Assembly: GCA_964036195.1 (NCBI GenBank)
Contig: OZ038458.1
Span: forward strand, 21,279,832-21,343,831
Reading direction: 5' to 3'
DNA length: 64,000 bases
Source of the DNA: Sphaerolaimus hirsutus
Taxonomy: Eukaryota > Nematoda > Chromadorea > Monhysterida > Sphaerolaimidae
The position numbers and the translations under genes are program-made. A model generated the notes under the pieces. It was not told the origin of the DNA and made no database searches. It saw nothing but the letters and a program-made list of their open reading frames with translations. Each line of letters begins with the position of its first letter. Positions within the stretch are counted from its first letter, which is position 1. Below are positions 12,910-53,791 of the stretch, in pieces.

Positions 12910-13101
12910 GGGGCAGTCCTAAGTCCTGTAAAGTGTAAAGTAAAGTCTCGAATGTAAAGTGAAATGCAAAGTAAAGTGTCAATCAAAACAAAAAAGAAAA
13001 GATTTTATTACTGAACTTTGCATGACAATTGACAGTTTACTTTGCATTTGACTTTACATTTGACACTTTACTTTACACTTTACATGGCTTGGGACTGCCA
13101 C
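12910..13101 (-). repeat. CWG-family MITE (family 1), reverse orientation
   Basis: 192-bp foldback with tips GGGGCAGTCC and GGGACTGCCAC and flanking CAG duplications (12907-12909, 13102-13104). The interior is made of inverted GTAAAGTGTAAAGTAAAGTG-type arms. Same family as the intron-like copy at 27881-28075. Confidence 0.85.
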
Positions 13102-18603: not shown

Positions 18604-18774
18604 GTGGCAGTCCCAAGCCATGTAAACTGTAAATAAAGTGAAGTTTCAAATGTAAAGTCACATGCAAAGTAAACTGTCAACTGTCATGCAAAGTTCAGTC
18701 ATAAAATATTTTCTTTTTGTTTTGATTGACACTTTACTTTACACTTTACACTTTACAGGGCTTGGGACTGCCCC
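18604..18774 (+). repeat. CWG-family MITE (family 1) with paralogous empty site
   Basis: 171 bp from GTGGCAGTCCCAAGCC to GGCTTGGGACTGCCCC, flanked by GTG and CTG. The related region at 20243-20330 has the same flanks (TTTTCATAACACAATA ... GCACTTGATGCCATTTTGC) without the insert. Confidence 0.8.
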
Positions 18775-23269: not shown

Positions 23270-26200
23270 ATGGCAAACATGGCTCATTGCCAATTCCATT
23301 GGGTAATACTGGCAACAGCAGTAATCAAACTGATTTTCGTGGTTTTGCTTGCAACTTCTGTCCTCGGTGATGTTTAATTTGGAATTTGATTTCACTTGAC
23401 AGCTTCTAATATTAATTTATGTTTCTAAATAATTGGTCGTTTCTATCTTGTACCGTGTAGCTCACATAATCATTAAATGTATGTGATTTTGATATATGTT
23501 TGATTTTCTGATCATTTTCTGTCTTCACTGAAACAGGCCAAACAGGTCAAAAGCATTGCAAATCACCAAAAGGTGCCCCAGTGTTGCAGTATGCTGGCTG
23601 GTGCTGGGCCATTCTGACAGGAACAAGTGAGACATTTCCCAACCTGACCATTGCTGGCTTGGGGCAGGATTTGTTGAGTCAAAGTGGCATCATGGCTGCC
23701 AATGTGCAACTTGCAGCACCCCTGGAATATGAAACCATGGGCATATTGTTCAGCTTTCTAATGAATGTGAGATTTTTATGATATTATTGCATTTGTTAAC
23801 TAATTTTACCCATTGAGTTTAGTATGGATTGGGATTGTCTGATTACGAGTCACCAATCTTGAGTATTTTAATGCAATTCTTCAGCTACCTTGAATTATAG
23901 ATTCAGAACCCACAATAAAAAACAATAAAAATTTTTTTCATTCACAGTATGCAGCAACAGCACACAGAGTTGGTCTTATCATTGACAGCTCAAATTCAAT
24001 GTTGCACTGGCAAAGTGCCGAAAGTAACTGGACCAGTCCAAGCACAGCCGATTGGGTGAATGCTAGTACATTTTCTGCAGAAAATCCATATGGAGTGATA
24101 AATGATGGGGCAATAGTGCCTGACTCTGGTATGGCAGCTTTGCCAATCATTGTGCAATATAGTGAGCTTTTTTTTGCTTGAGGAAAATATTTTCCATATT
24201 CATGCCATGATAGAGGTATTTTGTGGTTATGTATGTTACATCTTCACTTAAAAATTTGTATTGACATCTGCAACATTCACACAGGGCCTGCCAGATGGAA
24301 TTTAGTGTGCCACCCAGAAAAATATGCACTTGGAGAGATCATCCAATCTGACATACCTGTCTGCAACCAGATTGAATGTGAAAGAAAGTGCTACCACAGT
24401 GGCTTCTGTCTTTCATTTACTTTTAATGAAAATATGAATCTGTGCACAATGCATGGGTCAGTTAAAAACGAAAAACTCAACATAACAAAAGGAGAGAATA
24501 TGATTCTCTGCATTGGAATACCAACATTCAAGGGTACCCAATTTCTATCATTCAAGATTCATCATAAACAATGTTAACAGTAATTTTTTTTACCCATGCA
24601 GAATGTCCAGCACCTAAGTGTTCAGCAGCCGAATATGAGTATACAGTAGACAAAGGGGCAGGAATAACACCCAGGTCAGATCAATGGATTTTTTATAGAT
24701 CAATGGATAAATGAATTATAGCTGCATTAAAGCCGAGATTACCTACAGCTCAGCATAAAATGATGATGTAAAATGAAATCGTAAAATTAATTAATATTAG
24801 AGTGGATGATGCTACATGTCTCCAATTTTTTGCTGATAATATATGTATCAATACCTTAATTGTGACCAATACTGAGTGTTATCAGCAACAGCTAGATCAA
24901 ATTGAAAAATTCAATATTTTTTTCATTTTACATCATAATTTTACGTCAGGGAACTAATTTAACATTTTACGTCAACAACTTCATGCAACCATTGACATAA
25001 TATGTGAAATTAGTTCCCTGATGTGAAATAAAAGACATAGAATGGAAAACAATGAATTTCTCAATTTGCTCTAGCTGTGGCTGATAACACTCAGTATTGG
25101 TCACAATCAAGTTATTGATACATAAATATAGTTGAGTATGTGTATAGCCTTGGGTGTTACCAAACCCACGAAGGTTATGATTCATGTGTGCACCTACTGT
25201 GACTAGGTACTTGTAATGCATGTTCAGTTCAGCACTGTGCAAAAGAGAGACTCTCTCAACTGTGTCTTGGGGCCAGATTTATTTCTCCCTACAGATTTGT
25301 AGGGTAGGGCGTATGCCCGATAGATTTTTTAAAGTTCAGCCGCATCGACGCACATGCACCGAGAGCAAGGCGGTTTGTAAGATTTATGAAACCATCCCTT
25401 AAGGTCGCCGATATTGCAATATGACGTATATCACTTCGATTTTGGCACGGAAATCATGATTTTGTCATTTCTTGGCTGTCGGCCAATTCGTTTTTTATTT
25501 TATTTTGTCGGGCGGGTTACTCGCATAATTCGCGCTTTTGTGTAGTCAAGTGGTCACTTTTTTAGTGTTCACTGTCTGCAACCGAAACCATGAGGGCAGC
25601 GACGAGAAAGAAATGCATGCACAAGCGTACAAAAGCGCAAGTTATGCGAGTAACCCGCCCGACAAAATAAAATAAAATAAAAAGCGAATTGGCAGACGGC
25701 CAAGAAATGACGAAATAGTGATTTCCGGGCCAAAATCGAAGCAATATACGTCATATTGCAATATCGGCGACCTTAAGTGATGGTTTCGTATATTTTACAA
25801 ACCGCCTTGCTCTCGGTGCATGTGCGTCGATGCGGCTGAACTTTAAAAAATCTATGGGGCGTATTTACGCCCTACCCTACAAATCTGTAGGAAGAATTAA
25901 ATCTGGCCCTTGGGGTGTGGGCCCCTGTGTCGTCCCACATCTACTCTAACTATATATTATCCATAAAAAATTGGAGACCTGTAGCAGCGTCCACACCCAT
26001 TTACCGTATTACCTTGAAATACCCCCAGAGGCTTTGTTATTTCGCCAGCAAAATTTGAGGGGGAATTATTCGAGGGGGGTTTTATTTGAGACTGTGCAGG
26101 TATCGGGTCAGAGTCCAAACCTTCATGGCAGTTCTGCATTCTATTCTACGTTTTTGCACGCGGAAATACATATTTACGGATTTTTGAATACCGTATTTCC

Positions 26201-28482
26201 TCGAAATACCCCCCTCGTTCAAACCCCCACAAAATTTCCACTCTGAAAAAATAAACCCCCTGGGAGTATTTTGAAGGAGCCTGTGCCATTATGCATCTAA
26301 ACCCATTATGCATCTAGAACCAGCACACATTTAACTATACATAGCATGCTGAAAATCTGCAATAAAACATATGACCTAGTGATTAAAAATATGAAAATCT
26401 TTAAAAAGTACGAAAATTTGTGACTTTGGGTAAAAATTAGGTTAAAATTGCCCAAAAGTGCTCCAGATAGCTAGATAGCTAGGCAATTTGTGGGGGGGCT
26501 GTTCAGGGGAAAGTGACACCAAAAATTTGCCTCTGGTAAAGATAGATAGCTAGGCAGTTTGGGGTGAGGTTACCCGCCCCCTTTCTCACCCCTGCAGCTA
26601 TAATGTGTCTATAATTGGTCTAGATGCATAATGGGTTTAGATGCATAATAGGCCTGACCCTTTTGAGGAAATACGGTATAGTCGGCAGACATGATATTAT
26701 ACAGGTTTGGTCCACTTATGTTTCCCTTCGCTGAGCGTCGACTGAGGCGGAACATAAGTTCCGACTGCCGATTAAAATAAAAATAGAAATAAAAACCGTC
26801 AATCTTATTTTGGCATCGTGCCAAAAAGCTGGAATGTTGACGGGTAACATTGCTTCGCAGAAAATCCTGTGCGTATTGGCACTGAGCCATGTGCCACTGT
26901 TACTCCGCGCTCTCGCGCCAGCCTACATCTTAAAACTGCACGTGAATTTTGCTCGGCCGGGCGTGTCGTTTGTAGGGCGGGAATTGTAGGTCGAGCGTAC
27001 GCACAGGGGGCTAAAATTATGTGCGTTCTCTGTCAAATGTAAGAAATCGTAGAAATTTAACTGTCGTTATTGTGGTCACACACAAAAAAGACAAGCCTGA
27101 CGGAACGTTTGTGATTTTTGGACAGAAATCTTTGATTTTGATTTTTTTCACGTAAAGCCGAAATCTGAGTTGACACAGACCTTGTGTCAACTAGTGTGCA
27201 GCCCGTCGGATCGGCGTGCCGTCAGCACGCGAGTAGAGCGCGATTTCATCATTTTCGTTACACATTGTATTTAACCCATTTTTCATTTTTGGCCAAATTC
27301 CAAAAATGATGTCATCGCTGTGGCTCCTACAGTATCATTGTATACAGTGCGCGCAGATATTTTGCTTTGCATGCAGCGGTCGGCGCAAGCTCCGCCCACT
27401 TTCGTGTAAATGCCCACTAGCGCTAACCCCAAAAATCACGAACGTTCCGTCAGGCTCGCTTTTTTTTCTGTGTGAGCTCAATAACGACAGTTAAATTTCT
27501 ACGATTTCTTACATTCGACAGAGAACGCACATAATTTTAGCCCCCTGTGCGTACGCTCGACCCACAATTCCCATTTTTAAGCGCGTGGTGGGCCTCGAAA
27601 GGTTCGTAAAAATCCCAAGTTTGTATAGGGAAAACGACACGCCCGGCCGAGCAAAATTCACGTGCAGTTTTAAGATGTAGGCTGGCGCGAGTGCGCGGAG
27701 TAACAGTGGCACATGGCTCGGTGCCAATACGCACAGGAATTTCTGCGCGCACTGTAGTGTAATGTCTGCCGACTTTACACATTTTCTCGCCATTCCATTG
27801 CAGCGGATTTTTTGTAGCTGGTACCCAGTTGCGAATGCAATGCGCATCAGGTTACTGGATACGTTATTTATGGGTACCAGGTGGCAGTCCCAAGCCCTGT
27901 AAAGTGTAAAGTAAAGTGTCAAATGTAAAGTCAAATGCAAAGTAAACTGTCAATTGTCATGTAAAGTTCAATAATAACATTTTTTCTTTTTTGTTTTGAT
28001 TGACACTTTACTTTACATTTGACTTTACATTTGACACTTTACTTTACACTTTACAGGGCTTGGGACTGGCCCCAGGCAGCAGCACTTCTGCGACATGCCA
28101 GTCTGATGGCACCTGGGACATGGACATTTGCAATACAGGGGGCACTCCCAGACCCTGTAAAATGTCAAATGTCATTCAAAGTGTCAACAGTCATGGAAAA
28201 TGCCCTGCAAAATGGCAACTCGGTTACCATTTTGCAGGGCATTTTCCACGACTTTTGACACTTTGCATGACATTTGACATTTTAGGGGGTCTGGGATTGG
28301 CACCAGGAGATACATGCGTTACAGTTGTATCCAGTGAGTAACTTTCGTGAAACTTACTCTTTGCAAATAATATTAACACAACGAAAATTGAAAAATATTT
28401 GTCTGGAAACCTTTGCAGCCTCGTGTCCACCAGTTGTTGTATATGCGTGCGGCGGGACTAATTACTTGAGACCAAGCTATTA
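23270..28482 (+). CDS. secreted lectin-like / PAN-like / sushi (CCP) protein, 5' exons
   Basis: Spliced exons with GT-AG borders: 23270-23366, 23537-23766, 23948-24161, 24285-24533, 24602-24674, 27804-27880, 28076-28333, 28424-28482; phases agree at every junction. Exon 1 encodes a signal-peptide-like N terminus with a hydrophobic core (LIFVVLLATSVLG). Exons 2-3 resemble a C-type lectin fold (GWCWAILTG ... HRVGLIIDSS ... WTSPSTADW). Exon 4 has the PAN/apple-like spacing ECERKCYHSGFCLSFTF ... LCTMHG. Exons 5-6 form a CCP module: KCSAAEYEY, MQCASGYWI, SATCQSDGTW, DIC. A second CCP starts in 28424-28482 (SCPPVVVYACGG). Later exons were not found. Domains suggest an extracellular recognition or adhesion protein. 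Two MITEs lie inside the CCP exon: one placed exactly as an intron (27881-28075), one open in frame (28139-28303). Intron 5 (24675-27803) is filled by foldback elements. Confidence 0.78.
24733..25985. repeat. TGACGT-rich foldback MITE with a nested insertion
   Basis: Left arm about 24733-24960 and right arm about 24990-25130 plus 25914-25985. Shared inverted segments include CAATACTGAGTGTTATCAGC and GAGTGGATGATGCTACATG. The right arm is split by the 638-bp element at 25271-25908. The same family supplies the MITE part of the 350-bp array at 7481-8431. It lies in intron 5 of the sushi gene. Confidence 0.75.
25271..25908. repeat. near-perfect foldback element, 5-bp target duplication
   Basis: 638 bp from GGCCAGATTTA to TAAATCTGGCC, flanked by CTTGG (25266-25270, 25909-25913). 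The two arms are about 300 bp each and nearly complementary, so the whole can form one long hairpin. It contains CTACAGATTTGTAGGGTAGG near each end. Another copy is split at 33494-33534 and 39536-39690. Confidence 0.85.
26191..26676. repeat. TA-flanked CCGTATTTCC MITE
   Basis: 486 bp with ends CCGTATTTCCTC and GAGGAAATACGG, flanked by TA. The interior has CATCTAAACCCATTATGCATC units in inverted orientation, and a TAGATAGCTAGGCA segment occurring twice. Confidence 0.8.
26679..27773. repeat. large inverted repeat in sushi intron 5
   Basis: GTCGGCAGACAT at 26681 and ATGTCTGCCGAC at about 27762 bound two arms of roughly 380 bp that are mostly complementary (for example GCCTACATCTTAAAACTGCA near 26922 and its inverse near 27670). 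The centre is GC-richer. It ends 30 bp before the exon at 27804. Confidence 0.7.
27881..28075 (+). mobile_element. introner-like MITE: CWG family 1 copy acting as an intron
   Basis: Starts GTGGCAGTCCCAAGCCC directly after ...GGGTACCAG and ends GGGCTTGGGACTGGCCCCAG directly before GCAGCAGCAC. The element (about 27881-28072) plus its CAG target duplication gives a segment beginning GT and ending AG. Upstream and downstream sequence encode the two halves of one CCP module in matching phase (CCA G | GC AGC). Reading through it meets a stop after a few codons, so removal by splicing is needed for the protein. It is a foldback of GTAAAGTGTAAAGTAAAGTG arms, identical in type to the copies at 12910, 18604 and 28577. 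Splicing itself is inferred. Confidence 0.82.
28139..28303 (-). mobile_element. CWG family 2 MITE inserted in frame in the CCP exon
   Basis: 165 bp from GGGGCACTCCCAGACCC to GGGTCTGGGATTGGCAC, flanked by CAG (28136-28138 and 28304-28306). Element plus duplication is 168 bp, exactly 56 codons, and is open in the CCP frame. Without it the host reads ...DICNTG DTCVTVVS. In this orientation the element offers no GT at its left border, so it would be exonised rather than spliced. Confidence 0.85.
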
Positions 28483-28576
28483 TGTAAGTCGGGGAGCTAA
28501 CAGTCGAACAAAAGGGATAGGTATCTAGTAAAAAATAGCAGGCTTCTTAAGAAAAGTACCATTCCATAGAAACCTG

Positions 28577-28768
28577 GTGGCAGTCCCAAGCCCTGTAAAG
28601 TGTAAAGTAAAGTGTCAAATGTAAAGTCAAATGCAAATTAAACTGACAATCAAAACATAAAAGAAAAGATTTTATTACTGAACTTTGCATGACAATCGAC
28701 AGTTTACTTTGCATTTGACTTTACATTTGGCACTTTGCTTTACACTTTACAGGGCTTGGGACTGCCCC
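28577..28768 (+). repeat. CWG family 1 MITE
   Basis: 192 bp, tips GTGGCAGTCCCAAGCCC and GGGCTTGGGACTGCCCC, flanked by CTG (28574-28576, 28769-28771). It lies in the intron after the last recognised sushi-gene exon. Confidence 0.88.
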
Positions 28769-34425: not shown

Positions 34426-34596
34426 TGTTGGGATGTGATAAGTTATTATGTTTGAGAAGCGCGCTAGCGTTCGTTTGATGTGTGTGTGGTTATTTAATGT
34501 GTGAATCCGAGTACACTAGACCGACGAATAAAGATATGAAAATCCTCTCGAACATTACGTTGCAACGTGACAAGTAAACCTATCATAAATGCAACA
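34426..34596 (+). repeat. 5' LTR of the gag-pro element
   Basis: 171 bp, TGTTG...CAACA, with an AATAAA at about 34527-34532 as likely polyadenylation signal. Downstream within six bases is TGGTGGACGACC, a possible primer binding site. Confidence 0.93.
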
Positions 34597-34659
34597 TTTT
34601 TTGGTGGACGACCTTCCTTTTTGAACCCGGAGAGGTGCAGTTGTGGATCTTTCGTCGGC

Positions 34660-37600
34660 ATGAGTTCTCGTTCCGTGTCAACGGCACAATCTGAAGAAGG
34701 AGTGGATTCCAGAGTCATGTTCTCTCGTCATACTCGCGCTCATCCATCTTATCAGGTTTCTCAGTTGCCCATGGATTGTGCCGCAGAACGACAACGTCAG
34801 GAAGAAGCTTTGAGAGTTGCTGTCCGCCCCGGTGTTGCGCAGAGGGTGCCTAGCGATTTGTTTTGGCGGCCAGCTTCCCAAGTTTTGGATGGATCTATCC
34901 AATCTTCTCCCGTTCGTGAGAGTGTTGTCCAGTCGGTCTCTCGTTCCGCTCAATCGTGGCCCAGGCCCAACTTTGTTTTGCCGCCAATGCGTATCGACCA
35001 ATCTGGTAGTGCCGTTTCATGCCAGTTGCGCACGGATGTTCCTCCGCCGCGGAGGACATTTGCAGAAGCTGCATGTCGGAATTTAGAATTGTTTCGGTAT
35101 TCGAACCAGCCTTTTCAGATGAACACTGCAGTCGGGGTCGATAATGTGAAGTTATTGTTGCCTCATCATAGAACTGCATTTTGCGTGGATTCGGACCTTT
35201 TCCCAGTGGGTGAGTACTTGAAAGAAGTGGCTTTTGTGGATCATTTTACAGATAGACATTATGTGATGGAGGAACCCTTATTGCCGTCGAGTGATGATGA
35301 AAAGTTTGTTGTCCAAAAGTTGGAACCAGCAAACAAATCGACAAGCAACGATTTTCAGACCAGTGTGATGAAAATAATCACGAAAATGGATGAACGTTTG
35401 GAGTCATTTGAACAGAAATTGTCGACTTTGTCCGTGCACCAAGAGAACAACTCCGCCAACCCTGAGAACGTTGTTACTTCATCAGTCAAAGTCACGGCAG
35501 TCCCAGAATCACCGGTTTTTGCACAAAACATTTCTTCGTCTTCTATCAAATCCACTCTGGTCCCGGAACCGGTGTTAGCACAAAGTGTCGCTCCAGTTGA
35601 TCTCGACCCATGGTTATTGCGTGACATGTCTTCGATGCCGAAAGCTGTTGAAAAATCCGCGTCGGTGGACAACTTGAAACAGTGGATGATTTTACGCCCC
35701 CACATTTTGGACAAAATACCTGTTTATTCGGGTAAGGGGGACAAAATTCTCTCGTTTAACGAGTGGATGCGACAGGTGAAATTAGTCGCCAATTCTTTGA
35801 TTGACAAGACTCTGAAGGGGTATTTTTGGGATGAAGTGTTTGCAACAAAGTTGAACGGGGATGCTCATAAAGTCTTGAAAACGATCATTCCTCCAGAAAA
35901 GCTTTGTGAGGTTGAATTTGTCCTTTCATCGCTTTTGGATATTTTTAAGGACAAACCGCGCAACTATTCTACCTTAGAATGGGACAATGCGGCAATGTCC
36001 CGGACAGAAAGTTTTTCGGACTTTTATCTGCGGTTGCTGTCCAACGTGCCAGTCGAACTGAAGTCAAGTTTAGGATTTTCCAGGGACAATATTGAAGCCG
36101 TCATTTCTGTGAAAATTTGGTCCCGTTACGATGCTGTGCGATTTGATAAATTCGTCATTGCAAACTTCCGCAAACAGTTTGTCGCCAACAAAGTCAGCCT
36201 GCCGAGTGCTGTGCGTATTGTGGATGACTACTTTTCTGAATTTGTCCGACAGGCGCCTCAAAACGTCGCTACAAGGACGCCTCTGACTCGCCCCAACGTC
36301 AGACAAATGTTGCAAACGTTCAATGACCGGGATCCGTGGTGCCCGCGCCAGGGGCATTTTGGGCACCGAACCAGCCAGTGTCGCATGAACCGCACCGCAA
36401 TTCCAACGGCACCGGCACCGAATTCGTTTCCGGTCACTGATAAGTCAGAGGGGTATGGTCAGGTTCGACGCTTCGGGCCACAACAGACACACGATCTACC
36501 TTCACGTATGCAAGCCAAAGCCGCGAATGAAACTAATTCTGTGAACACAGTGATCAACGACAATTTAGAAATTTACAATGACAACAATGCACAAACGGCA
36601 TTGACAAATGACAACGACATGACTGAGAATAATGACCCATGTGACGTTTATGTCAATGAGTTCAGGCATAGAATTTCTCAAATGATCTATGACGATCCCG
36701 GTATGTTCCATCATGCTCACTCCCGTTTCGCACGTGCATTTCATACATTTACTCAGACGCATGTGATGCCAAAATTGGAGAGTTCTTCACGAGTGCCTTC
36801 GGAGACGTCACTCCCGAAGAATATCAGGGAGAGTGAACATGACAACGTTGATTTGAATGATCTGAAAGTGAATGATAATTCAACAATGCTTGAATGTGGA
36901 TCGAAATTTTTAGCTGGTGAAATTTGTCATTTGTCAAATGAAAAAGATGGTGTAATTCTGGCAAAAACTGGATTTTCAGCTCATACGAATATTGGAGCGA
37001 ATCAAAGACTTTGCGTTAAAATTGTGGCTAATAACGGGCCATTGGTATATACCACAGTTGACATAGCTGGCGTACCCTGTCGCGTACTCCTTGACAGTGG
37101 CTGTACACGCTCTCTCATGCCTTTGTCCATTTTAGAACAGATTTCTGAAAACTCAGGAATGGTATTGTCGGATTGTCTAACAAAGTCGTCAGTGTGTTTA
37201 GATACAGTTAATGGCCAGACAAAGGATGGAGATTTGTCGGAAATCAATTTGGATATTTCACATTTATCACCAGTTGATTTGATTCGCAGACGTGTTAGGG
37301 CCGTTTTTCTTGTTAATAATACACCAGGTGCATTATCAGACATTTTGCTGGGTACTGACATAATGCCATTTTTGAAACTTACATGGTTAATTCCCATTAT
37401 TCTAGAAAAAAATTGTTCAGCACCAATTCCTCATGATGATCAATTAACCGCTGATGTTGCTCAAAAGGAAGGGAATTTCAAATTGAAATATACTGAGCTG
37501 GTTCAATCCACAAAATCTATTTTTGTTCCTGCAAACGGTATGCAAATGTTTTCCTGTCCAGTGCCCAAGAAGCCTACACACGTTCATACCTCAGATTGGA

Positions 37601-38064
37601 CACGTTCTTGTTGCATTTTGTCCAATGTGGACATTCCGCATTCAGGGCTAGCCATGTATAACACCATGGTACCGTTGAATACCACGAAAACTTTGTCTGT
37701 TCATTTCTTCAACATTCATAGCTATCCAATTCAAATACCAGTCGGTACTCCCCTGTTTACCTGTGATGTATACTCTAAAGATGCAATTTTTGTGCCAGGG
37801 AACAGTTTTTCTGCACTTCTCAAGGATAATTCTCATGTAGCATGTTTCGGAATGAGTCGCGCTTGTGGGGCGATCGAATTGCCATCACCACCTGACGCTC
37901 CGGTCGAAGTGGTAGGGGAATTCTCATCTTCTTTCTCATTTTTTGACTATGCCGAAAAGTTTTTCATGCTGAAATCGTCAACTCAAGACGACAAAAACGT
38001 TGGCTGGCACTTATTCGTTTTTTGTTGGACGTTTGATGCTTTTTCAGATGTTTCTTTGTTTTGA
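34660..38064 (+). CDS. Gag-protease polyprotein of the LTR element
   Basis: The frame is open from 34567, but the first ATG is at 34660, which gives 1134 residues and leaves the LTR outside the CDS. Residue positions are approximate. The N-terminal third is Ser/Arg-rich. A coiled-coil-like segment follows (KMDERLESFEQKLSTL), then a Gag capsid-like helical region (FNEWMRQVKLVANSL ... NYSTLEWDNAAMS ... SFSDFYLRLL). A zinc-knuckle relic reads CPRQGHFGHRTSQC, where the second Cys of CCHC is Gln. A retropepsin motif RVLLDSGCTRSLMPL has the catalytic DSG. After the protease about 250 residues have no recognised domain, and the frame ends where RT would be expected. No stops or frameshifts. Confidence 0.85.
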   Translation: MSSRSVSTAQSEEGVDSRVMFSRHTRAHPSYQVSQLPMDCAAERQRQEEALRVAVRPGVAQRVPSDLFWRPASQVLDGSIQSSPVRESVVQSVSRSAQSWPRPNFVLPPMRIDQSGSAVSCQLRTDVPPPRRTFAEAACRNLELFRYSNQPFQMNTAVGVDNVKLLLPHHRTAFCVDSDLFPVGEYLKEVAFVDHFTDRHYVMEEPLLPSSDDEKFVVQKLEPANKSTSNDFQTSVMKIITKMDERLESFEQKLSTLSVHQENNSANPENVVTSSVKVTAVPESPVFAQNISSSSIKSTLVPEPVLAQSVAPVDLDPWLLRDMSSMPKAVEKSASVDNLKQWMILRPHILDKIPVYSGKGDKILSFNEWMRQVKLVANSLIDKTLKGYFWDEVFATKLNGDAHKVLKTIIPPEKLCEVEFVLSSLLDIFKDKPRNYSTLEWDNAAMSRTESFSDFYLRLLSNVPVELKSSLGFSRDNIEAVISVKIWSRYDAVRFDKFVIANFRKQFVANKVSLPSAVRIVDDYFSEFVRQAPQNVATRTPLTRPNVRQMLQTFNDRDPWCPRQGHFGHRTSQCRMNRTAIPTAPAPNSFPVTDKSEGYGQVRRFGPQQTHDLPSRMQAKAANETNSVNTVINDNLEIYNDNNAQTALTNDNDMTENNDPCDVYVNEFRHRISQMIYDDPGMFHHAHSRFARAFHTFTQTHVMPKLESSSRVPSETSLPKNIRESEHDNVDLNDLKVNDNSTMLECGSKFLAGEICHLSNEKDGVILAKTGFSAHTNIGANQRLCVKIVANNGPLVYTTVDIAGVPCRVLLDSGCTRSLMPLSILEQISENSGMVLSDCLTKSSVCLDTVNGQTKDGDLSEINLDISHLSPVDLIRRRVRAVFLVNNTPGALSDILLGTDIMPFLKLTWLIPIILEKNCSAPIPHDDQLTADVAQKEGNFKLKYTELVQSTKSIFVPANGMQMFSCPVPKKPTHVHTSDWTRSCCILSNVDIPHSGLAMYNTMVPLNTTKTLSVHFFNIHSYPIQIPVGTPLFTCDVYSKDAIFVPGNSFSALLKDNSHVACFGMSRACGAIELPSPPDAPVEVVGEFSSSFSFFDYAEKFFMLKSSTQDDKNVGWHLFVFCWTFDAFSDVSLF

Positions 38065-40938: not shown

Positions 40939-42000
40939 TTACATTGCGCACCTAGTAGAAGAGTGTAAGCCATCTATTTTGTTGCAAAAGTGAAATTTTT
41001 CCTGCATAAGTTTGTCACCACCTAATATAGCATCATATTTAAATTCATAATTGAAGCAATGTACATATTGAGTTGGTAAACTGTGCTGTAGTTGTGTAAT
41101 CATATTTATCCAAGTTGGATGTGGTGATTCTGACAGGTTGTAGTATTGAATGGATTTAGTGATGTTTACAGCAATGGTACATATCTTACACTTTGTCATG
41201 ATTTCTGCTAGTTGATTAGAATATATGCAAGCTTGTAGTAGGGATCTCACCAAAAGATCATTTTTACATACAAATGAAAGGATTAGTTGTAATGGTTGTA
41301 GGTTAATATGAGCTTGGTTTAAAAAATGGAAGACGTGCCTAAAAGAAGCATTTGTATCTGTGCCAATCACAAATATTGCAAGTTTGCACATGTTTTCTTT
41401 TCCTGCAAAATGAGGCCATAATTTTTGTAAATATTTGGCACATTCATGTTGCATCTCATCCCTTATGATGAAGCATACTCGTTTGATATGCATACACCAT
41501 CTAATCATGTGAGAGATATGTTTTGGTATGCTTTCACCAAAGGGAATAGACAGTGAGAAGACATCATGTGTTCCACAACCGAAGTAGTTAATAACACACT
41601 GCATAGGGCCATCTTCTGTAATTGTTCTGGTTTGAAACTTGAAAAGTGTGATGAACTTGCCCTTCATGATAGTTATGGAGTGATTACTATCAAACAGATA
41701 AACCAATCTATCCCTAATATATATTTCATCACTTCCAACATGTCCTCTTTTGCCAGTAGCCACACACTTTATCAGCATGAAAATGTGCCCCATTGGAATG
41801 TACGATAGCAGTGTAGCACCAACTTCTGCCGGAACTGTCTTTGTGAAGTATTGCATGATGCCATTCACATATTTGTCTTGATCCTATATTATAAGGCATA
41901 TATATTTTTGTAATTAGGATAAGGTAGTAAGATTAACCTTTGTAATATATTGCCTCTTGCCCTTTATCACAGCCTGAACAGCAGGAGAAACATTTGTCAT
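40939..42000 (-). CDS. unknown Polinton-linked protein, divergent from the rest
   Basis: Two exons on the minus strand, 41938-42000 (21 codons, starting MTNVSPAVQAV) and 40939-41883, joined over a 54-bp GT-AG intron in phase 0 to give 335 residues. Cys-rich and His-rich, with no domain that I recognise. The ATG lies 14 bp from the ATG of the plus-strand neighbour, so the two share one very compact bidirectional promoter region. It is assigned to the Polinton by position and by the same short-intron style. Confidence 0.6.
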
Positions 42001-42014
42001 TGTTTCTGTTAACA

Positions 42015-42677
42015 ATGGATGGTGACACTACAGGCTTTAGTAATTCAAGGAGTAGGAAAGAAATTTTGGATTATGTATTAAGAAGTAGATCAGGCAGTGG
42101 TATCCTGTACAGTAGAGAATTTTTCACTATTTTGAAGCCGCAGTCTCAACATGTGGAAAGGTTTAAACTGAATCTGGATGCATTTAGAGTTGTATTTCAC
42201 AACCTAAATAGTCATCTAAACCTTGCCTTGGTATTGAGTGAAGCCATTGGCTGTGTATTCAGGTTTGGTATTGACTATAAATGTTTTTATGTATGCTTTG
42301 TTTTTTCATATGACTGAATCTTTATAGACACACTGTTGGTCAGCGTCATCCATCAAATTTATGTGTGGGGATTTCATTGCAACATGAAAGTTTGCCAGAA
42401 TGTGGGTCATGTCTTTACATTATGCTATTAGTATGGTGACAAAAATGGATCATAAACTTGCAGCATACGTAGAGCATTTTCGTTTGGGATCACGATTTAG
42501 TGCTGTAGCTGCAGCACAGGATATTGCAAATTTATTGAATTCTCACCAGACAATAGATTTATTAGATAATTCTATGGTGCTATTTGTTAACACAGTTGGT
42601 AAGTATTATGTTATTGACTAAATTATTGCCTATTTCATGTATACTATATAAAAAAATTTATTTTTTCAGAAAGATAA
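42015..42677 (+). CDS. unknown Polinton gene upstream of PolB
   Basis: Starts at the ATG at 42015. Exon 1 ends at 42262; a 65-bp intron (42263-42327) follows; exon 2 continues in frame to a stop near 42435 or, after a one-base shift or a 26-bp gap, runs on as MVTKMDHKLAAYVEHFRLG to 42598, where a 71-bp intron leads to ...VER and stop TAA at 42675-42677. The stop overlaps the PolB ATG as TAATG. The need for a shift suggests a decayed gene. No domain recognised. Confidence 0.5.
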
Positions 42678-45600
42678 TGGATCCAGCTGATCAACCATCA
42701 TGTTCCTATGCGCCATGTATCCCTAGATCTGTAGATTTGGTAGATCAGCCATGTTCTTCTAATGCCACGACTGTATACAATATGGATAGATGCTTCATAG
42801 ATGCTGACAATGAGTCTGATGAATCTGACACAATCCCACGAGAAGATTTTAGTAATTTGACAAATTATGGCACTGTGGGTAGATTAAGTGGAGGTAGGAG
42901 AAGGTCTATATATCAGGATGTTACCACCGCACGTTTGCGCCAATCCATGTTATTGAGTAAATCAAGGAAGCATTGTGAATTTGTTGTATCATGCGAGCAG
43001 ACGCTTGTGTATGCTGTATGCCTGGCACTGGGCAAGATTAGAGCATTCAATCCCAATAGGGGTCGTGATTCTCGAAATTATTGGCGTCGCGTTCGACGTC
43101 ACTGTGAAAAGAGTCCATCGATCGAGTTGGAAAGACTGGCATCGCAGTTGCGCACAGAAGCTCAACTACCACCTACAAATGTATTTGTGGGTCTGGAATC
43201 ACTAAATAAAATTCAAGGTGCACCAATGATGGAGGATGTTGCCATAAGGGTTTTTAAAGAAGGGACGAAAGATCAAATATGGGGCGATTTCAAAATTCGA
43301 AGTCCACATGTGATAGATATTATGCTGTATCACCATGGTGGCAATATATTCTTTGCGGTGATATGGGGATTGGTGACATTTTTGAGTGCACAGGGCTACT
43401 GTGACACGTGCAAGGAGGTGTTCTTTGATCGAAAAAGGCTTGTTTATATTGTTTTGTCCATGTAAAAGTATATATATATACATTTATATATTCCAGGCAT
43501 GTGTGCCCATTTAGATGCAACTATTGTGGCACTGTTCCAATACCTTCAAATGTTACAAACACCAGCCTGCTTTCAGACTGTCCAAAGGTGAATGGGGAGG
43601 AAAAAACATGTCGAGAATGTTTGCGAAATTTTTACTCGACATTCTGCTACTCGACATGAGTTAGTTTTGAATATAATGTCGGTACAACATTGAATGTATG
43701 ACTATACAACTATATTGTTTTCATAGGCAACATTTACATGTACAAGGTGCGGGCAGGTGGGCTAAGCCGAAATGCTACAGTCAACGTCTATGTCCTGCAT
43801 GTGGGCATTATTTTAGTCTGACAAATCGCAATGGTGCATATGTGAACACTCACAAATGTCCTGAGCAAAGAAGTTTTGGATGTGGCTATTGCAAAAAGCA
43901 GATTCCCATGAGTGAGCAACATGATGCATGCTACTTGCCTGTGCTGATACCGCATAAACTCCAACGAGCAAAGAAAATTGTATTTTTGGATTTAGAAACT
44001 AGAATCTGTAGAGCAACTAATTTGCACAAGGCAAACCTGCTGACCACAATTGTGTAAGTCATTTAATGTATACGTTACTATAAGTTTTATAATTCAGATA
44101 CTCAACTTTTTGCTTGTAACAGTTCATGTTCACTCTGTTGGCAGAAGGACATGCATGAGTCATGTAGGAGATGTGGCATTGCTCGACTTTCTGTATGGTG
44201 TGGCGAAAACTGCGTTGACGAATTTGTTGAAAGTTTTTTCTGCATGGGTATGTTATCAACGTTATATATAATTTCTAAAAATTTTTTATTATTATGATCA
44301 AATATTTTCAGAAAATGCTAATGCAACCATTGTCAGTCATTTTGGGAGCAGATTTGATTTCCAGTTTCTACTATCTGCACTGGTTTCCCAGTGCAAAACT
44401 CCACAGACTGTGTTTTCACGTGGAAACAGAATCTTATATGTCAAGTTTCACAGCGGAATCAAAATGATATGTTGGGCTAATTATATACCAACATCTTTGG
44501 AAAACTTCTGCAAATCATTTGAGGTTCCAGTGACAAAGTCATTTTTTGCTATGATTTGAACGAAGAGCATGTCACTGATGCATACTGTCATGTTAGGCCA
44601 AAGTGGGAATTCTCAGCATCAGGGCGAAATTCTAGGGATTTCGATGCTTACCATGATGCGCACTATGACAAAGTGTTTGACGTTGCTGAGGAGATGAAGG
44701 TATATTGTCAAAGGGATAGTTATGCCTTATCATATGCGGCAATGAGATTTCGGGAGGAGCTGATAAAGTTGCTAGATGTGGATTTGTTTGCAGAGTCTGG
44801 CACATTTACCATATCTGGATTGACACTGCGCGTTTTTCAAAGTATGTAAAGTTATTAATTTTTTCAAGATGCATTATGACATTGTTAACAGAGTTTTTTC
44901 ATCTTTACAGCCAGATTTTTACAAGAGAATACATTGGCAATTTATCGTGGTGAAGCACTGGTCGATCGAAACAGTCGATTTTCAATGGCATTTCTCAGCG
45001 CATATAGTAGATATTTTGGGGTATGATTATTTAAAGAAATTTGTGAGTAATAATTATATTCTATTGTCACTCCGCAGGTTCATGTGCAACATGCTGGCAA
45101 TGAGCGTGAATATGTCGTACAGTGTGGCAACAATCGTCCCTTCAAAGTGGATGGTGCAGAATTTGAACCTGGGTCAGAGTTTCCATCCCGGTTGATTGAC
45201 ATCCATGGGTGTTTCTACCATGCATGTATCATGTGTACCAGGCATTTATCAGCAACGCGGTTTGTTTAATGCCATTAAATATGGATACCATAGATATATA
45301 ACAATAATTAATCAACTAATGCAGACCACTTACATTGCTCGGTGGCAAAACGCCATTGCAAGTTCGGGAATATGACTATTTTCGAGCTAATAGTATCGTT
45401 AAGGCTGTACAACCTTTGCACTACGATTTATATTGGGAGCATGAATGTCGAAATGTGTTAAGTTCAAATAGACTATTGAAGCAGTTTTTCACAGAGGCAC
45501 TATCTGATAAACCGTTAAATGTATATGATGCGAATTTTGGTTAGTTATAGGAAGTGGAAATTTTTTGTGGATTTTATAATTTTTTTATATTTTTTATTTT

Positions 45601-47454
45601 TAGGTGGCAGGATTGATACATTTCAAATTGGAATACACACCAATGTGGGCATTTGTGCACCAAGTGCAGATTTTTTGGACTTTTGCAGCTTGTATCCTGC
45701 AATGTGCCTGACAAAGCCAATGGCACAAGGACCTGGAAAGATAATTACAGAGGGGGGCATCACTGGCGACTTGAATGAATGGGTTTTGGTATGTGGCATA
45801 TATATTTTTTTTATACATCTATCTACATATATAATATATATGTTTTTGCAGGGCAATTTTGGAGTTGTGAAAGCCTGGGTTCACTATCCACAAGCTGATG
45901 TGTTCATCCCACCATTGCCATTTCGTGCAAATCTGCCAAATGGAGATGAGAAAATATTCTACAGCACATGTGCATCGTGCTGCATTGAGCAGAATTTTGA
46001 CATTTGCAGGCATACATTCCACGAGCAAATATTTCGTGGCACATGGACAGCGGTATATTAGTACATGTGCCTTATATTGCATATAAAGTTTTTATGGATG
46101 TGAAACGTTTCAGGTTGAAGTTGGTGCGGCAATCAGACATGCGGGCTTGAAGGTTATAAGAATAATTTCAGCCCATGTCTATGAGTCCCGCGTATGGACA
46201 AAGGAGGCTGGTGTGAGTTCAGGTCTGATCAGTGCATTCATGCTTGCATTTTACAAGCTGAAATGTCAAGCTAGTGGTAAGTTTAACTCAACTTTTATAA
46301 TGTACAATCTAAGATTGAAATGTTGTAGTACTTTTCTCAGATCTTCCACCGGGGAAAAGTGCAGAAGAGTACTCTCATGAAATCTTTCAACGATTTGGAA
46401 TATATATTGCACCGAGGTCTTTTGCACCAAATCCAGTCAAGCGTTCAGTAGCAAAATTGATGATCAATTCACTAATTGGAAAATTTGCGCAGAAGAAGTC
46501 ATCCCACAATACAGAATTTTTCACTGATCACGGAGGTCTTTTAAAGGTGCTTGAAAATCCAAATGTGAATGTTCATTGGATACAGGTATGAGATTGTAAT
46601 TCTTTTTTAAAATGTTGTGCTACCCATATTTTTTGTTTCAGCATTTTGGCTCCGCGGATCCTTTAAAATTGGGGACACAATCGTCTGTGATGGTGCAACA
46701 TTCCATCAATCAAGACTCAAGTCTGGCACATGTGGGTCCAAATAATGCATTCAGCGTTCCAATCATCACAGCCCTTGTGACAGGATATGCCAGAGTAGAG
46801 TTGTATGAGGCAATGTTGAAGGTGCCTGAAGATGCACTTTTATATACAGACACGTTGGCTTGAATTTTTTGTATTTATTTATATATTAAATTTTTTATTT
46901 AAATGCGGATATATAATGTAGGGATTCAATAATGACATTGGATGGGTCAAACTTGCAAGCATTGTGTGGACATCACTTGGGGCAGTTGACTCCAGTATTG
47001 AAGGATCAATATAAATTGGATCACATCTGCATTGTTGGGGTTGGTTAATAATGGCTATTATGGGGTTTAAAATGATAACTTTTGTTTTTTGCAGCCAAAG
47101 CAGTATGCCTACACTGCAAAGCACACTATCAATGGTGGAACATATAGGACGGTGAGATTGCGCGGATTTGCCAGTGCAGCAGAAACTGATGAGCAGGCGC
47201 AACAGAGTAATCGCAAGCCCACAGTGTCCTATGAAAACATGTGTAATGCTGCCCGATCCCTTTTGGAGAAAACAGACTTAAAGAAATTGGGTGTTAATGA
47301 GCTCAACTTTCTTTTGTCGAAAGATTTCAAGATATCAATTGATGGACGAAAGAAGTATTATAAGCCCGTTTCCAATAAGCGCTTCTTTGTTGCCCCAGGC
47401 GTAGGTGGTGCATCATGTGTTAAGACTTATCCATATGGTTATAATCGCATATAG
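42677..47454 (+). CDS. Polinton family B DNA polymerase (PolB), more than ten introns
   Basis: The polymerase replicates the element by protein-primed synthesis in the family. An N-terminal basic region is followed by Cys pairs (YCDTCKEVF, CPFRCNYC, CRECLRNF, CPACGHYF). Exo I is FLDLET near 43985; Exo II reads SHFGSRFDFQFLL near 44333, with Phe where Asn is usual; Exo III is YCQRDSYAL near 44705. The GCFYHAC motif (45207) precedes palm motif A DFCSLYP (about 45678), motif B AKLMINSLIGKFAQ (about 46458) and motif C YTDTDS, whose codons are split by a 68-bp intron (46854-46921). C-terminal PKQYAY is at 47095. Clear exons include 44123-44247, 44911-45020, 45078-45259, 45325-45539, 45604-45788, 45852-46052 and 46114-46275. 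A one-base frameshift lies in a T6 run near 44541, and some N-terminal junctions are unresolved. Confidence 0.88.
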
Positions 47455-47561
47455 TGTGGTGTATGTGTGTGTACGCGCGTGCATTTATTTGTCATCGTCA
47501 TTTTTTTAATTTTATTTTATTATATTGCTATTATGCCAATAGAAAATAAATAAAGTTGCAG

Positions 47562-50132
47562 GCATTTATAAAAAAATTTATATCGCTAAATTTTAATACT
47601 ACCAACGACAAAATCAAAATTGAGCCCAACTTGTTGCAGTCGTCATTGGATTTCCAATTGGATCCTGTTCGTGTTGTGTCAGAAAGTGAATATCAACATC
47701 TGCTAGAGTGCCAAAGCCAGTTGAATCACTTGAAAAGTTTGTTTATATTTAATAATGATAAGTATTGTTCAATTTTTCATCAATAATAATCATTGTCAAA
47801 TGTGCAGAATGTCCGATTCTAACACAAATGTTGGCAATGGCAAACTTAAGCAGAAAAAGTCGTTCAAGCATGGAGAACAACATGACTCATCCAGAACAGG
47901 GGCATTACATGAGGCAGACACCAACAACGATGGCGATATGTTTATCCAACCCGCCACCAATGTTACCAACCCCTTTGTACCATCCGGTGGCGCAGGAAGA
48001 AAGATTGTTGTTCCAAGAGGAGGGGGAGGAGGAGGAGGAAAATCTGGCAAGAGTGGAAGAACAAGTGCCGCAGAGCAGCACACAGCCGACAGATTGCAGA
48101 CCGCCAAGCCCAGATACAGTACAGTCACTCATGATGCTGATCCCCCCGGTATAATTGATATGTTTGCAGACTACACATGACTGTCATATGCGGATAATAA
48201 TGCTCACATTGCAGAATATCTTAACGCCAGAGAAGCTGCAGCCATCCACCAAAGACAAGCTCGGAAGAAGGTCGTCACCTTCGACAAAAGTGCCAACAGT
48301 GCCGGTGCAGGTGGAAAACGTCGTGGATCAGACGGTCATACCAAGCGTTCAGAGCCCGCACAATGGAGCCAGCGGGAGTTCTTTGCCGGAAGTATCGGAA
48401 TGGACGAAGAAGAACGACCTCCCAGCAGGGCAATCCCCCCAGAAACCTTGCAAATGGATACCAGAGGAGGAAAACAAATTGGAGCTGGAGAAACAGAACG
48501 AGCTAGGGACCACCACCACCACCACCACCACAGTGGTAGTCGTGGACAAGGCGAAGAAGAAGAGGAACAAGAAGAAGAAGACTGTACCATTGTTGGCAGC
48601 GACACCAGTGAGCATGACTTTGGATATTGCGGTAGTGATTTACAAATGATGAAACGATCAATGCCAAGGCGCCTTGAAACAGACATCGCTGGGCTATCGC
48701 ACAATATGGCAGGTGCAGAGTCCAATAAACAGAAAGGGGCAAATTGGAAGGAGGCGGAGTCACAAAACGTTGAAAATGAGTCACAACAAAGCGCAAATGC
48801 CACAACCGGTGGAAAAAGTCAGTCTGTTGATGTGTTCACAGTGTCATCAGATCAAGGGAAAGGCGCAACACAAGGATCAGAAGACGGAAGGAAACGCGGC
48901 AGCGACGAGCTTGAAGGTGACATGAATAAAAAGTATAAAAGTGCAAGGATTGCCGATGAGTCAATGCTATCGACACAAAAGATTGTTCACCTTGAAGATG
49001 GGGATGATGGAGATTATGGCAGTGATGAAGATGATGACATGTATTTGGAGGCGGCCAGACAGGCAAAGCTACCAAAAAAACAAGCAGATGTTACTCAGAA
49101 GCAAGGTGGTGGTGGCACAAAGAGAAATGTAGCTGGCAACAAGCTTGCTCCACCAAAGGATACACCCGGAAACAGAAAATATATTGGATTGAGCGAATTT
49201 GAGCGTGGTATTCCACGTGTGGATGCCTATGGTCGTGCTACAACCGTTGCTCGTATGTTTTGTTTTTTGTGGTTACATTTGTCGCCTGCACATTAATGAA
49301 TAAACATTAACATAATATACAGGTGGAAATTCTGCACTTTTCGACATGGCATTTGTGAGGCAGGATGTGTTGGATGGTCCTCCGTTTCCATTCCAACCTC
49401 CCAATGCAATTGTACTGTGGCTGTAATATCCATGTCGGGATATTTCAAATCGTGCAAAGGGCAAGCGCTTTTCCAATGGGCGAACCACATTCATCATCGA
49501 CATGTGCAAGGTGTGGTACTTTTGGTATTCTTTGTTTACTAGTCCAAAAAAATTATTTTTACTTTTTAGCCATGCCGCATTTTGAATTGTGAAGCACGCG
49601 AATGCTTTCAAGATGAGGATGAAATTTATGGGACCCTGAAACCATCTGACATTGACAAGGCACTAAGGAAATATCCATATCCGGAACAGTTCACGCCGTT
49701 GGGTGGAGCGCCATTCAGTTTGACACGTGCTGAGGGACTCACACTTTTGATGTGCGAGCATTGTCGGTGAGTAAACATATTCATCGTGAAATTCATCATC
49801 ATCATCATTTTCCATATTTCTCTCCCTCTCTCTCTCAGCCTTGTGACATCAACCAGGGAGTGTGTGCGAGATGTGAATGGGAGATGCCGGGTAAGTTAAT
49901 CACTAATGACAAAAGTTTATGATTTAAAACATTTTGTATTTATTGTTTTCAGATGACTATTGACATGTGTCAAAGGTGCATAGATGCCAACAGTGAAATG
50001 TCCATGGCACTATATCCAACACAGGCTGAGTTGGACCGCCAAAAGGGTAGAAGGCAATATTTTAAAGGAATCAACAGTGATGAGGTTGCTGGCAAAGTGG
50101 TGCAGACACATGGAAAGTGCATCCGCGATTGA
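47562..50132 (+). CDS. Polinton Lys/Glu-rich protein with Cys-rich C-terminus, unknown
   Basis: Exons 47562-47761, 47808-48149, 48219-49252, 49322-49514, then 49571-49766, 49839-49890 and 49953-50132; phases agree. The first exon begins without a clear ATG (IEPNLLQSSLDF ... EYQHLLECQ), so an upstream start may be missing. The middle is low-complexity and charged, with Gly and His runs (H7 near 48510). The C-terminal part has paired Cys: DMCKPCRILNC, LMCEHCR and DMCQRCIDA, a probable zinc-binding region. An in-frame TAA at 49424-49426 separates NAIVLWL from YPCRDISN with the frame open on both sides, so this copy is either broken there or ends early. Family not recognised; a structural or DNA-binding role in the virus-like particle is possible. 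Confidence 0.55.
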
Positions 50133-50374
50133 ATTGTGATTTTTAGTTGCTGCATTTTTTATTACTGCGACTACTACTATGAATATGACAATGACGACAA
50201 TACTAGGCATATTTAAGCATTTTTGTTATTGATCATAATAATTTGTTATTCATACTTGTTTTACATTTAATGTTCAAAAGTGTGATCAAATTAAACTTAA
50301 AAGCAGAAAGTGTTGCTACATACACACACACACACACACACACAGCTAATTAATCAACTACGAGAATAGGAAAA
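50133..50374. other. intergenic with (CA)n microsatellite
   Basis: Non-coding, AT-rich, with about 12 CA repeats at 50321-50344 between two Polinton genes. Confidence 0.8.
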
Positions 50375-50466
50375 ATGCAGAGACTTCAACATTCCTTCCC
50401 AATGCTTATATTTGGATCATCAGATATGAATTTACACAAATCATTTCACTATAAATGAATAGTGTG

Positions 50467-50499
<33 letters not shown>

Positions 50500-51868
50500 G
50501 TACTATATCATTTACAAGTTGAGGTTATCTGTATAAATATTCATCACGTTCTGGAAAAACCACACTACTAATTGAATTAATTAAAAATCGTCAGCATATT
50601 TACGATCACCCGCCAGATCATTGCCTATTTCTATTTAGCTATTGGCAAGAAAAGTATTTAGCATTAAAGACATGTGCAGAGTTTGGCAGAATTGAAGATT
50701 TTTGCGACTCGTGGCGCACTGTGGTCAAATATAAAGAGGAATTAGATGAGCGTTCAAATACAAAAGATTCCCATTTATTGCTGGTTTTAGATGATCTTTC
50801 AGCCAGTCTTTCATCCGCTACTGAGATTGACAACGACGATGACATAGGTGGAGAGAGGCGAAATAATACAGGGGCAAATAATCCAACGCGTCTTTTACGA
50901 GATTTGGCACAAGGTGCGGCTAGGCATCACAACATTTCTTTAGTGGCAACGCTACAGAGTTTGTTTGACACGCAGGTATGCTAAAATGGTATTTGCATGT
51001 ACATAAATACACATTTAGGTGTATTATTATTTTTTTTTTCAGAATTTGAAACAAAGTCGCAGCTCCAGCGTTTACTTCATTTTATTTAGGTATGCCTATC
51101 TGCCACCCACATGTATGTATGTATGTATGTATGTATGTATGTATGTATGTTTTCATCACATTATTTCTTCTTTGCAGCTTCCCATCTGATGCATTAACGA
51201 CAAAATCATTTGCTCAACGTTGGCAGGACCCAGCACTGTTCATTGGAGCATATAAGCAAGCAATTTCCGATAAAAATTTTGGATATTTATTTGCAAACTC
51301 AGATCCGTCAATTCCTGACGAGTTGAGATTGTCAAATTCACTTTTTCCCTGGGATAAAGATCTCGTGTTCTATCAGTGGGAAAAACTGTCAAGCGATATT
51401 GACATATTAGGTGCTACTTCCGCGGCTGGTGGCGACATTGACGAAAAATTTGGAGCTGTCACCAAAAATAAAGTAGGAGAAGAAGGCACCACAAAGCCTT
51501 CGGGACAATTGAAATTTGCACCACAATCACAACATCGACGACGAGGTGCTGGCGGTGGTCACAAAGCTGGGCGAAAGGTTGTCGCAGTGCCCGCAGAAAT
51601 AGCGATTGAACGTGTTTGTGATTCAGACGAGACATTTCGGAAAGATCTGTGCGCAGCCGGAGGGCCGTTAAAGGCAAAGTGGTCACATTTGAGGCGACGA
51701 CGACAACAACAAAAGTACAAAACGCACGGTGGTGCAGAGCAGGAAAATTCACATAACAGTGCACAAAATGACAACGACAAATGGACCTTCCAATCCAAGC
51801 CACCATATACAACAACCGCAATTGGAGCCGCCAAGCAAGCCGGCAGCACCACCGCTGGGAACCGCTAG
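50375..51868 (+). CDS. Polinton packaging ATPase (A32/FtsK-like)
   Basis: Likely start at 50375 (MQRLQHSFPMLIFGSS). After an unresolved junction containing a (TA)n tract, the frame continues YSSRSGKTTLLIEL, whose SRSGKTT is the Walker A loop. Walker B is HLLLVLDDLSA near 50780. Exons end at 50975, then 51043-51089 and 51178-51868, phases 0, 2, 2. GLSLVATLQSLFD-type sequence (HHNISLVATLQSLFD) fits the sensor region of this ATPase family, followed by SSSVYFILFS and a C-terminal part with FAQRWQDPALF and a basic, low-complexity tail. The enzyme pumps the genome into capsids in related viruses. A (GTAT)n microsatellite occupies the last intron (51112-51150). Confidence 0.82.
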
Positions 51869-52217
51869 GCGCCGGAAAAGTACTGGACGCCTTGCACGCA
51901 ACTGGATGATTTTGGAAAAGCTGGCAAAGGTGCCATCTGCAAAAGAACGACGAAACATTATAAGTACAATTTCAGAAGATGCGCTACGATGTTTGCAGGA
52001 CGTCATTGCAAATCTAATGTCTGGAGTGATACAAGTGAATAAAAATCGAAAGAAAATGTTAAAGAGATATAAGCAAAAGTTTATGTCAATTTTATCCAGT
52101 AATATGCGCGAAAACTCTCTTCGTCGTGCACTTTTGTCTCTATGTAATGGCCAGGCACTTGTTACATTACTAACGACATTTATTTCACACTACGTTCGCC
52201 CGTTGAAGAAGAAGTAA
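51768..52217 (+). CDS. small basic Polinton protein overlapping the ATPase gene
   Basis: 149 residues from the ATG at 51768, in a different frame from the last 101 bases of the ATPase. The N-terminal 50 residues are Pro/Ser-rich; the rest is basic and helical (KERRNIISTISEDALRC ... NKNRKKMLKRYKQKFMSIL ... ALLSLCNGQALVTLLTTF). The spacing ISEDAL...CLQ - basic hinge - LLSLCNGQ resembles small conserved proteins found beside the ATPase in Polintons and related viruses, but I cannot name it. Overlapping frames are typical of virus-like gene packing. Confidence 0.65.
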   Translation: MTTTNGPSNPSHHIQQPQLEPPSKPAAPPLGTARRRKSTGRLARNWMILEKLAKVPSAKERRNIISTISEDALRCLQDVIANLMSGVIQVNKNRKKMLKRYKQKFMSILSSNMRENSLRRALLSLCNGQALVTLLTTFISHYVRPLKKK

Positions 52218-52401
52218 AGCAGTTTTTCCAGTTTATTGTTATTGCCTTGTACATCGTTCTCCCCCCCTTTTTTTTATTTTGACCACATTTTCACTTTGCT
52301 TTTTGTCATCACAGTCATTATTATTACTATTGTTATTGTTATTGTTATTGTTGTTGTTATTATTATTATTATTATTACCATCGACAACACACTATTGAAC
52401 A
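52218..52401. other. intergenic, ATT/GTT-repeat rich
   Basis: A pyrimidine run (C7T8) is followed by a (TTATTG)n and (ATT)n tract at 52318-52378. No gene; open frames here code for Ile/Val runs only. Confidence 0.8.
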
Positions 52402-53754: not shown

Positions 53755-53791
53755 TAATTATTACTATACCCCCCGACCAAAAAGTATTGCG

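Follow-up and report, generated by a model that had tools for sequence, protein, structure and literature searches.

A foldback element within a CCP exon

Can a DNA transposon that lands in a coding exon give its host gene a new intron? This question is raised by a 195-bp segment in a 64,000-nucleotide stretch of contig OZ038458.1 of the nematode Sphaerolaimus hirsutus (the window, whose positions are used below; features lie on the plus strand unless stated otherwise). An earlier note had placed this segment at 27881 to 28075 and had described it as a foldback MITE inserted at a CAG of a CCP exon, with the element tip as splice donor and the duplicated CAG as acceptor. The boundaries read ...GGGTACCAG / GTGGCAGTCCC...GGGACTGGCCCCAG / GCAGCAGC (a slash within a sequence marks a boundary), and the coordinates are correct. 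The segment consists of a 192-bp foldback element (MITE1, 27881 to 28072), with a GT tip on the left and a GG tip on the right (ending ...CTGGCCC), plus one CAG. This CAG (28073 to 28075) is the right copy of the target duplication and would supply the AG acceptor; the left copy (27878 to 27880) lies directly before the element, within CCAG/G. Inserted at CCAGG in the GT-first orientation, MITE1 reads CAG/GTGGCA...CCCCAG/G. Its foldback arms (27877 to 27954 and 27999 to 28076) are 78 nt long and 94% complementary, and the RNA of 27871 to 28085 folds at -118.6 kcal/mol (z = -15.6), with 0 of 200 shuffled sequences equally stable. Other copies in the window lie at 18604 to 18774, at 28577 to 28768 (downstream of exon B, with a CTG duplication), and on the minus strand at 12910 to 13101 (GT tip at 13101), and the body of the segment is confirmed as a foldback of the family represented at 12910, 18604, and 28577. 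The family similarity extends to both proposed splice boundaries, where the tips and the CAG are located. The length of 195 bp is a multiple of 3, which the earlier note had missed, and retention of the segment in the mRNA would lead to a stop 9 codons past the junction.

The interrupted exon A extends from 27804 to 28333; its gene encodes CCP modules and, farther upstream, probably a PAN domain. Part 1 of exon A (27804 to 27880) follows the acceptor ...CCATTGCAG, part 2 (28076 to 28138) is SSTSATCQSDGTWDMDICNT, and part 3 (28307 to 28333) ends at the donor CCA/GTGAGT. Exon B (28419 to 28483, donor GTAAGT), which starts the next CCP module, is also present in paralogs L092 and L093. The PAN_1 domain (24353 to 24496; Pfam PF00024, E = 6.2e-6, 26.4 bits, above the cut-off) is encoded by an upstream exon that probably belongs to the same gene as the CCP exons. 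The Pfam match of the spliced module is weak (Sushi, E = 0.17, below the cut-off), and the assignment of the exon to a CCP module therefore depends on the paralogs; a protein search with the CCP composite found nothing. Just upstream of exon A, a large nested inverted repeat occupies 26856 to 27747 (116 nt at 97% and 111 nt at 95% complementarity).

When the spliced 77-aa exon pair was searched against the genome, 10 matches appeared, among them two tandem paralogs that run unbroken through the MITE1 site, one at C14:21179984-21180154 (75% over aa 1 to 57) and the other at C14:21251158-21251325 (73% over aa 1 to 56). Exon A is 167 nt long in both of them and in the window once both of its MITEs (see below) are removed, and taking out the 195 bp puts exon A of the window exactly in the register of the paralogs. 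These empty sites show that MITE1 was inserted into the CCP exon. They also bear out, in exact register with the sequence, the boundaries previously assigned to the segment; the insertion of a DNA transposon at a CAG of a coding exon, with CAG on both sides of the element and paralogs that lack it; and the view that the flanks form one CCP exon whose frame returns upon removal, as seen in the two uninterrupted copies of 167 nt. Over 55 codons, exon A has no stop and shows dN/dS values of 0.13/0.28 and 0.15/0.32 against the two paralogs, which is only suggestive of constraint.

A second element, overlooked earlier, lies in the same exon. MITE2 (28139 to 28303), a 165-bp foldback element related to MITE1, starts 63 bp beyond the MITE1 segment and is absent from both tandem paralogs, L092 and L093. 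It is inserted with the GG tip first, beginning GGGGCAC, and hence does not start with a GT tip. Together with the right copy of its CAG duplication (28304 to 28306), it amounts to 168 bp (28139 to 28306), or 56 codons that are open in the frame of the gene. The lengths of both MITEs with one CAG (195 and 168) preserve the frame, and the exons that were read are open. MITE2 may be translated, as an exonized transposon of 56 codons, or may be spliced out from a GTAAAA at +18.

The window also contains other features. Retroelement-like ORFs are found on the minus strand at 787 to 2682, with Integrase_H2C2 and rve domains, and on the plus strand at 34540 to 38061, with an aspartyl protease match below the cut-off; the minus strand has further ORFs as far as 6569. 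A run of long ORFs from about 41900 to 58800 is possibly a large Polinton-like element. The ORF at 53741 to 54319 has an integrase core match below the cut-off, and Pfam gave no hit for five other ORFs from 40942 to 58806. Outside the window, the COX1 gene on contig C762 was read with genetic code 5; among the best 120 of 8000 scored proteins, the seven closest to it are 69 to 90% identical, and the listed hits that carry an organism name are at 67 to 70%.

A MITE family with CWG target duplications

The left tip of MITE1 was counted as an exact 20-mer across the genome, which comprises 348 Mb in 762 contigs. CAG followed by GTGGCAGTCCCAAGCCC occurs 454 times (0 for the backwards control), and CTG followed by the same tip occurs 484 times. 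The numbers of exact CAG and CTG copies are thus equal (p = 0.34), and so there is no sign of the family being kept for its spliceability. Of 1262 first-look candidate copies, the 40 that were scored are 93 to 100% identical. Among 54 GT-tipped elements at loci L001 to L060, 44 have C[A/T]G on both sides (CAG on both in 27, CTG on both in 6, and a mixture in 11), although the share of A is inflated by the fetching of half of these loci with a CAG pattern. Among the 30 loci found by similarity (L001 to L030), 23 have C[A/T]G on both sides. CAG on one side with CTG on the other was seen in 11 of the 54 elements and in 6 of the 30 loci. The neighboring bases favor CCWGG, with C in 29 and G in 33 of the 54 elements, and 25 of the 30 similarity-found loci have one GG tip (GGGG or GGGC) and one GT tip (GTGG or GTGC). 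Taken as a whole, the family resembles an ordinary MITE family, and apparently few of its copies lie in coding exons.

The CWG duplications, the GT and GG tips, and the empty sites point to a family of the NuwaI type. The NuwaI group of the PHIS (PIF/Harbinger, ISL2EU, Spy) superfamily is characterized by CWG target duplications, usually GGG tips, and animal hosts, according to the portion of its description considered here (PMC4482050). The present family shares the CWG duplication, the G-rich inverted-repeat tips, and an animal host with the NuwaI elements of that portion and differs from them in that one of its tips is GTG instead of GGG. Intron creation, which is proposed here for this family, is not mentioned for NuwaI in the same portion.

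Insertions in other coding exons

Seventy elements with their flanks were surveyed for coding insertions. At L049, where the element belongs to the same family as MITE1, its removal opens a frame of 87 + 288 codons that is 7TM-like and may encode a GPCR. Pfam reported for this protein DUF508 alone (E = 0.009, below the cut-off), and a protein search with the spliced product found nothing. A family copy at L081:1336-1790, with GT...AG ends and CAG on both sides, lies between two coding-like stretches that have no Pfam hit and is likely to be a third coding insertion. Pfam gave no hits for seven proteins from junction ORFs of other family copies. Further open junctions (L002, L018, L025, L046, and more) were judged by eye to be chance.

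A comparison of the L049 protein with the genome gave 43 matches from 50 scored candidates. Eight of these are unbroken from aa 4 or 5 to at least aa 320, seven of them free of stops, and others break near aa 54 to 63. Six GPCR-like paralogs carry a MITE at one aligned position, KPG/FW. Four of them (L098, L099, L101, and L107) have a GT-first element with a CAG duplication, L113 has a GG-first element with CAG, and L100 has a GT-first element with CTG, which makes five at CAG and one at CTG. L096 and L097 have in common a GG-first MITE at WLQ/TV, with CAG at a CCAGA site. Elements lie elsewhere in L104 (CAT, with no AG at the exact boundary) and in L111 (CAG, with the left end alone seen), and a second element at the N terminus of L098 has no AG at the exact boundary. 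The break in L105 contains no CWG-type MITE. Another paralog, L106 (C9:14617030-14617950), seems to be interrupted by a foldback-like element of another kind, about 0.8 kb long, which by eye is without splice-like ends. Frameshifts are present in L099, L100, and L101 and apparently also, by 1 nt, in exon 1 of L107. The TGA in exon 2 of L098 is the natural stop, exon 2 of L107 is open as read, and L113 has an open frame on both sides of its element. The GT tip comes first in 10 coding insertions (L049, L098, the N-terminal element of L098, L099, L100, L101, L104, L107, L111, and MITE1) and the GG tip in 3 (L096/L097, counted once, L113, and MITE2), a difference that is not significant (p = 0.09) in a set of 13 that was listed by hand, is not random, includes several insertions at one site, and leaves out L081.

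Occupancy of the KPG/FW position by separate insertions is likelier than descent from one, since the elements at this site show no greater similarity among themselves than to elements in other places and differ in family, duplication, and orientation. The element of L099, for example, matches MITE2, which lies outside this gene family, at 84.7%, that of L113 at 78.5%, and that of L100 at 73.8%, and at least two MITE families are represented at the position. Exon 2 of four of the six genes (L098, L099, L107, and L113) shows 28 to 38% amino acid identity; in exon 1, the other two resemble one of these four each, L101 resembling L098 and L100 resembling L113. Even so, L101 and L098 carry MITEs of different families, and L100 and L113 differ in duplication and orientation. 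The frame of L049 contains 28 CWG but two CCWGG sites, at codons 52 and 57, of which the former is hit in L049 itself and the latter in the six paralogs. The uninterrupted paralogs L102 and L103 carry CCCGG and CCGGG at the KPG/FW site.

Selection on a gene pair with a MITE inside

In exon 2 of L096 and L097, the differences at the three codon positions number 36, 25, and 64 over 270 codons (p = 6e-5), with dN/dS values of 0.126/0.364 (NG86) and 0.132/0.312 (YN00). Exon 1 is 95% identical, with 2, 1, and 6 differences over 60 codons and a dN/dS of 0.022/0.168. Their common MITE has diverged to 77 to 80% identity, and the copy in L097 has been enlarged to about 1.8 kb. When the differences were polarized with L049 and L098 together, the L097 branch was constrained (9, 8, and 23; p = 0.005) and the L096 branch was without constraint (15, 9, and 14; p = 0.44). 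The counts were 6, 9, and 19 for L097 and 14, 9, and 19 for L096 with L049 alone and 10, 9, and 24 and 12, 8, and 15, respectively, with L098 alone. The coding sequence of this pair thus appears to have stayed constrained with a MITE inside it, which favors removal of the MITE from the mRNA, as constraint on a gene with a MITE in its coding region would imply. The elements of L096, L097, and L113 are GG-first, and so these genes support tolerance of MITEs rather than use of the GT tip. In L096 and L097, removal may proceed through GG-AG ends or through a poor GT at +18.

Candidate splice sites of MITE1 and alternative explanations

Candidate donors were scored with vertebrate-like base frequencies. 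On this scale, the tip donor CAG/GTGGCA reaches about -0.1 bit, and two ordinary donors of the same gene reach +2.8 and +4.0 bits. A second GT within the left arm, CCT/GTAAAG (27899 to 27904), scores -1.5 bits. Either of these two donors keeps the frame when joined to the CAG acceptor, and an alternative AG (TTTACAG, 28055 to 28056), 19 nt before the AG of the duplication, loses it. The earlier proposal that the tip serves as donor and the duplicated CAG as acceptor therefore stands insofar as the segment is bounded by GT and AG and its removal restores the ancestral frame, and it is weakened by the low score of the tip donor and by the in-frame alternative at 27899.

The strongest competing explanation, which we consider unlikely but weighty, is that MITE1 is an ordinary disruptive MITE that is not spliced, that this gene copy is dead or a young allele, and that the GT...AG fit arose by chance. 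A random insertion in coding sequence is expected to show such a fit at about 0.24 (roughly 1 in 4), from one of two orientations multiplied by the CAG share of 454/938; moreover, the tip donor is weak, two MITEs lie in one small exon, and several of the MITE-bearing GPCR-like paralogs are broken. It is opposed by the open state of the exons that were read, with MITE2 in frame and stop-free, by the constraint on L097 despite the MITE in its coding region, and by the open frames on both sides of the elements in L049 and L113.

A less probable alternative is that MITE1 is indeed an introner-like intron but is spliced from CCCT/GTAAAG at 27899, which would leave six codons of the element, its leading 18 nt, in the mRNA. 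Each arm of the palindrome has a donor of this type, which GG-first insertions could use as well (at +18 in MITE2 and as GTAAAA at +30 in L113), and it is in frame for MITE1 and MITE2 and, at +30, for L113. In addition, the first 20 nt of the common element of L096 and L097 are unchanged, compared with differences at 27 of 120 aligned positions (P = 0.004), a contrast that may reflect gene conversion, exon 1 being 95% identical as well. The 27899 donor nevertheless scores below the tip donor (-1.5 versus -0.1) and leaves extra residues in the CCP module, and the +18 site is very poor in L096 and L097 (-9.1 and -8.6 on the same scale). That the MITE hopped into an intron already present at the site is very improbable, as no supporting point was found, both tips abut the exon directly, each next to a CAG, and neither tandem paralog has an intron here.

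A proto-splice target and the proposed gain of introns

Introner-like gain of an intron through the tip donor is the best reading of MITE1, short of proof and held with somewhat better than even confidence; gain of an intron through either of the two donors is likely. A nonautonomous NuwaI-type (PIF/Harbinger-like, PHIS) MITE inserted at CCAGG in the CCP exon and duplicated the CAG, as the empty sites show. The segment reads as a GT...AG intron because CCAGG, the preferred target of the family, coincides with a proto-splice site and GT opens one of the tips, and one orientation thereby yields CAG/GT...AG/G. The spliceosome would most likely excise MITE1 from the pre-mRNA as a 195-nt intron, the RNA hairpin presumably drawing the two splice sites together, and the gene would thus have gained an intron by transposition. 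That the tip supplies the donor cannot be the whole rule, given that some coding insertions are GG-first, without a GT tip at the start, in genes with open frames. The broader suggestion that this DNA transposon creates introns gains from similar elements in other coding exons, including one constrained pair, and loses from the equal numbers of CAG and CTG copies and from some broken genes. In a general MITE family, such gain is probably a minor side effect and not the fate of most copies. It is conceivable, though doubtful, that several related NuwaI families act as a working intron-making system, in which the match between CCAGG and the proto-splice site leads to repeated independent introns at an identical position of paralogs and in which the palindromes are removable in either orientation, including as GG-AG introns, with the hairpin joining the exon ends.

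Introners made by transposons are a known kind of element, and what is unusual here is a target that is a proto-splice site, together with repeated hits at one position. In the part of the survey by Gozashti et al. considered here (2022; PMC9860276), the introners of animals and land plants come from two groups, each of them animal, with copepods named, and the legend of Fig. 2C describes a class whose members provide the 5' splice site themselves and co-opt the 3' one. MITE1 resembles the introners of that part in its inverted repeats, its target duplication, its insertion in an exon, and the restoration of the frame upon removal, and it matches the class of Fig. 2C in having its own putative 5' splice site and a putative co-opted 3' one. 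The present family differs from those introners in that apparently few of its copies lie in coding exons and in that GG-first copies are also present in open-frame genes. Parallel gains by introner-like elements have been argued for in fungi (PMC4457414), in a paper whose main text does not contain the word "transposon". The fungal elements and, apparently, the present ones have in common independent gains at the same intron position, whereas the hits reported here concern paralogs within a single animal genome, and the target motif offers an explanation. A study of noncanonical introns of tunicates (PMC13326754) contains, in the part considered, no mention of target sites or inverted repeats. 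Among the matches listed in the open-licence literature, no title concerned NuwaI or Harbinger introners, which does not show that none exists.

The origin of new introns is a long-standing question, and intron-making transposons have been documented in few animals, namely two groups in the portion of PMC9860276 considered here. With a preferred target that coincides with the proto-splice site and MITEs at one GPCR-like position in six paralogs, apparently through separate insertions, parallel gain of introns at one and the same position can be examined directly using RNA from a single species.
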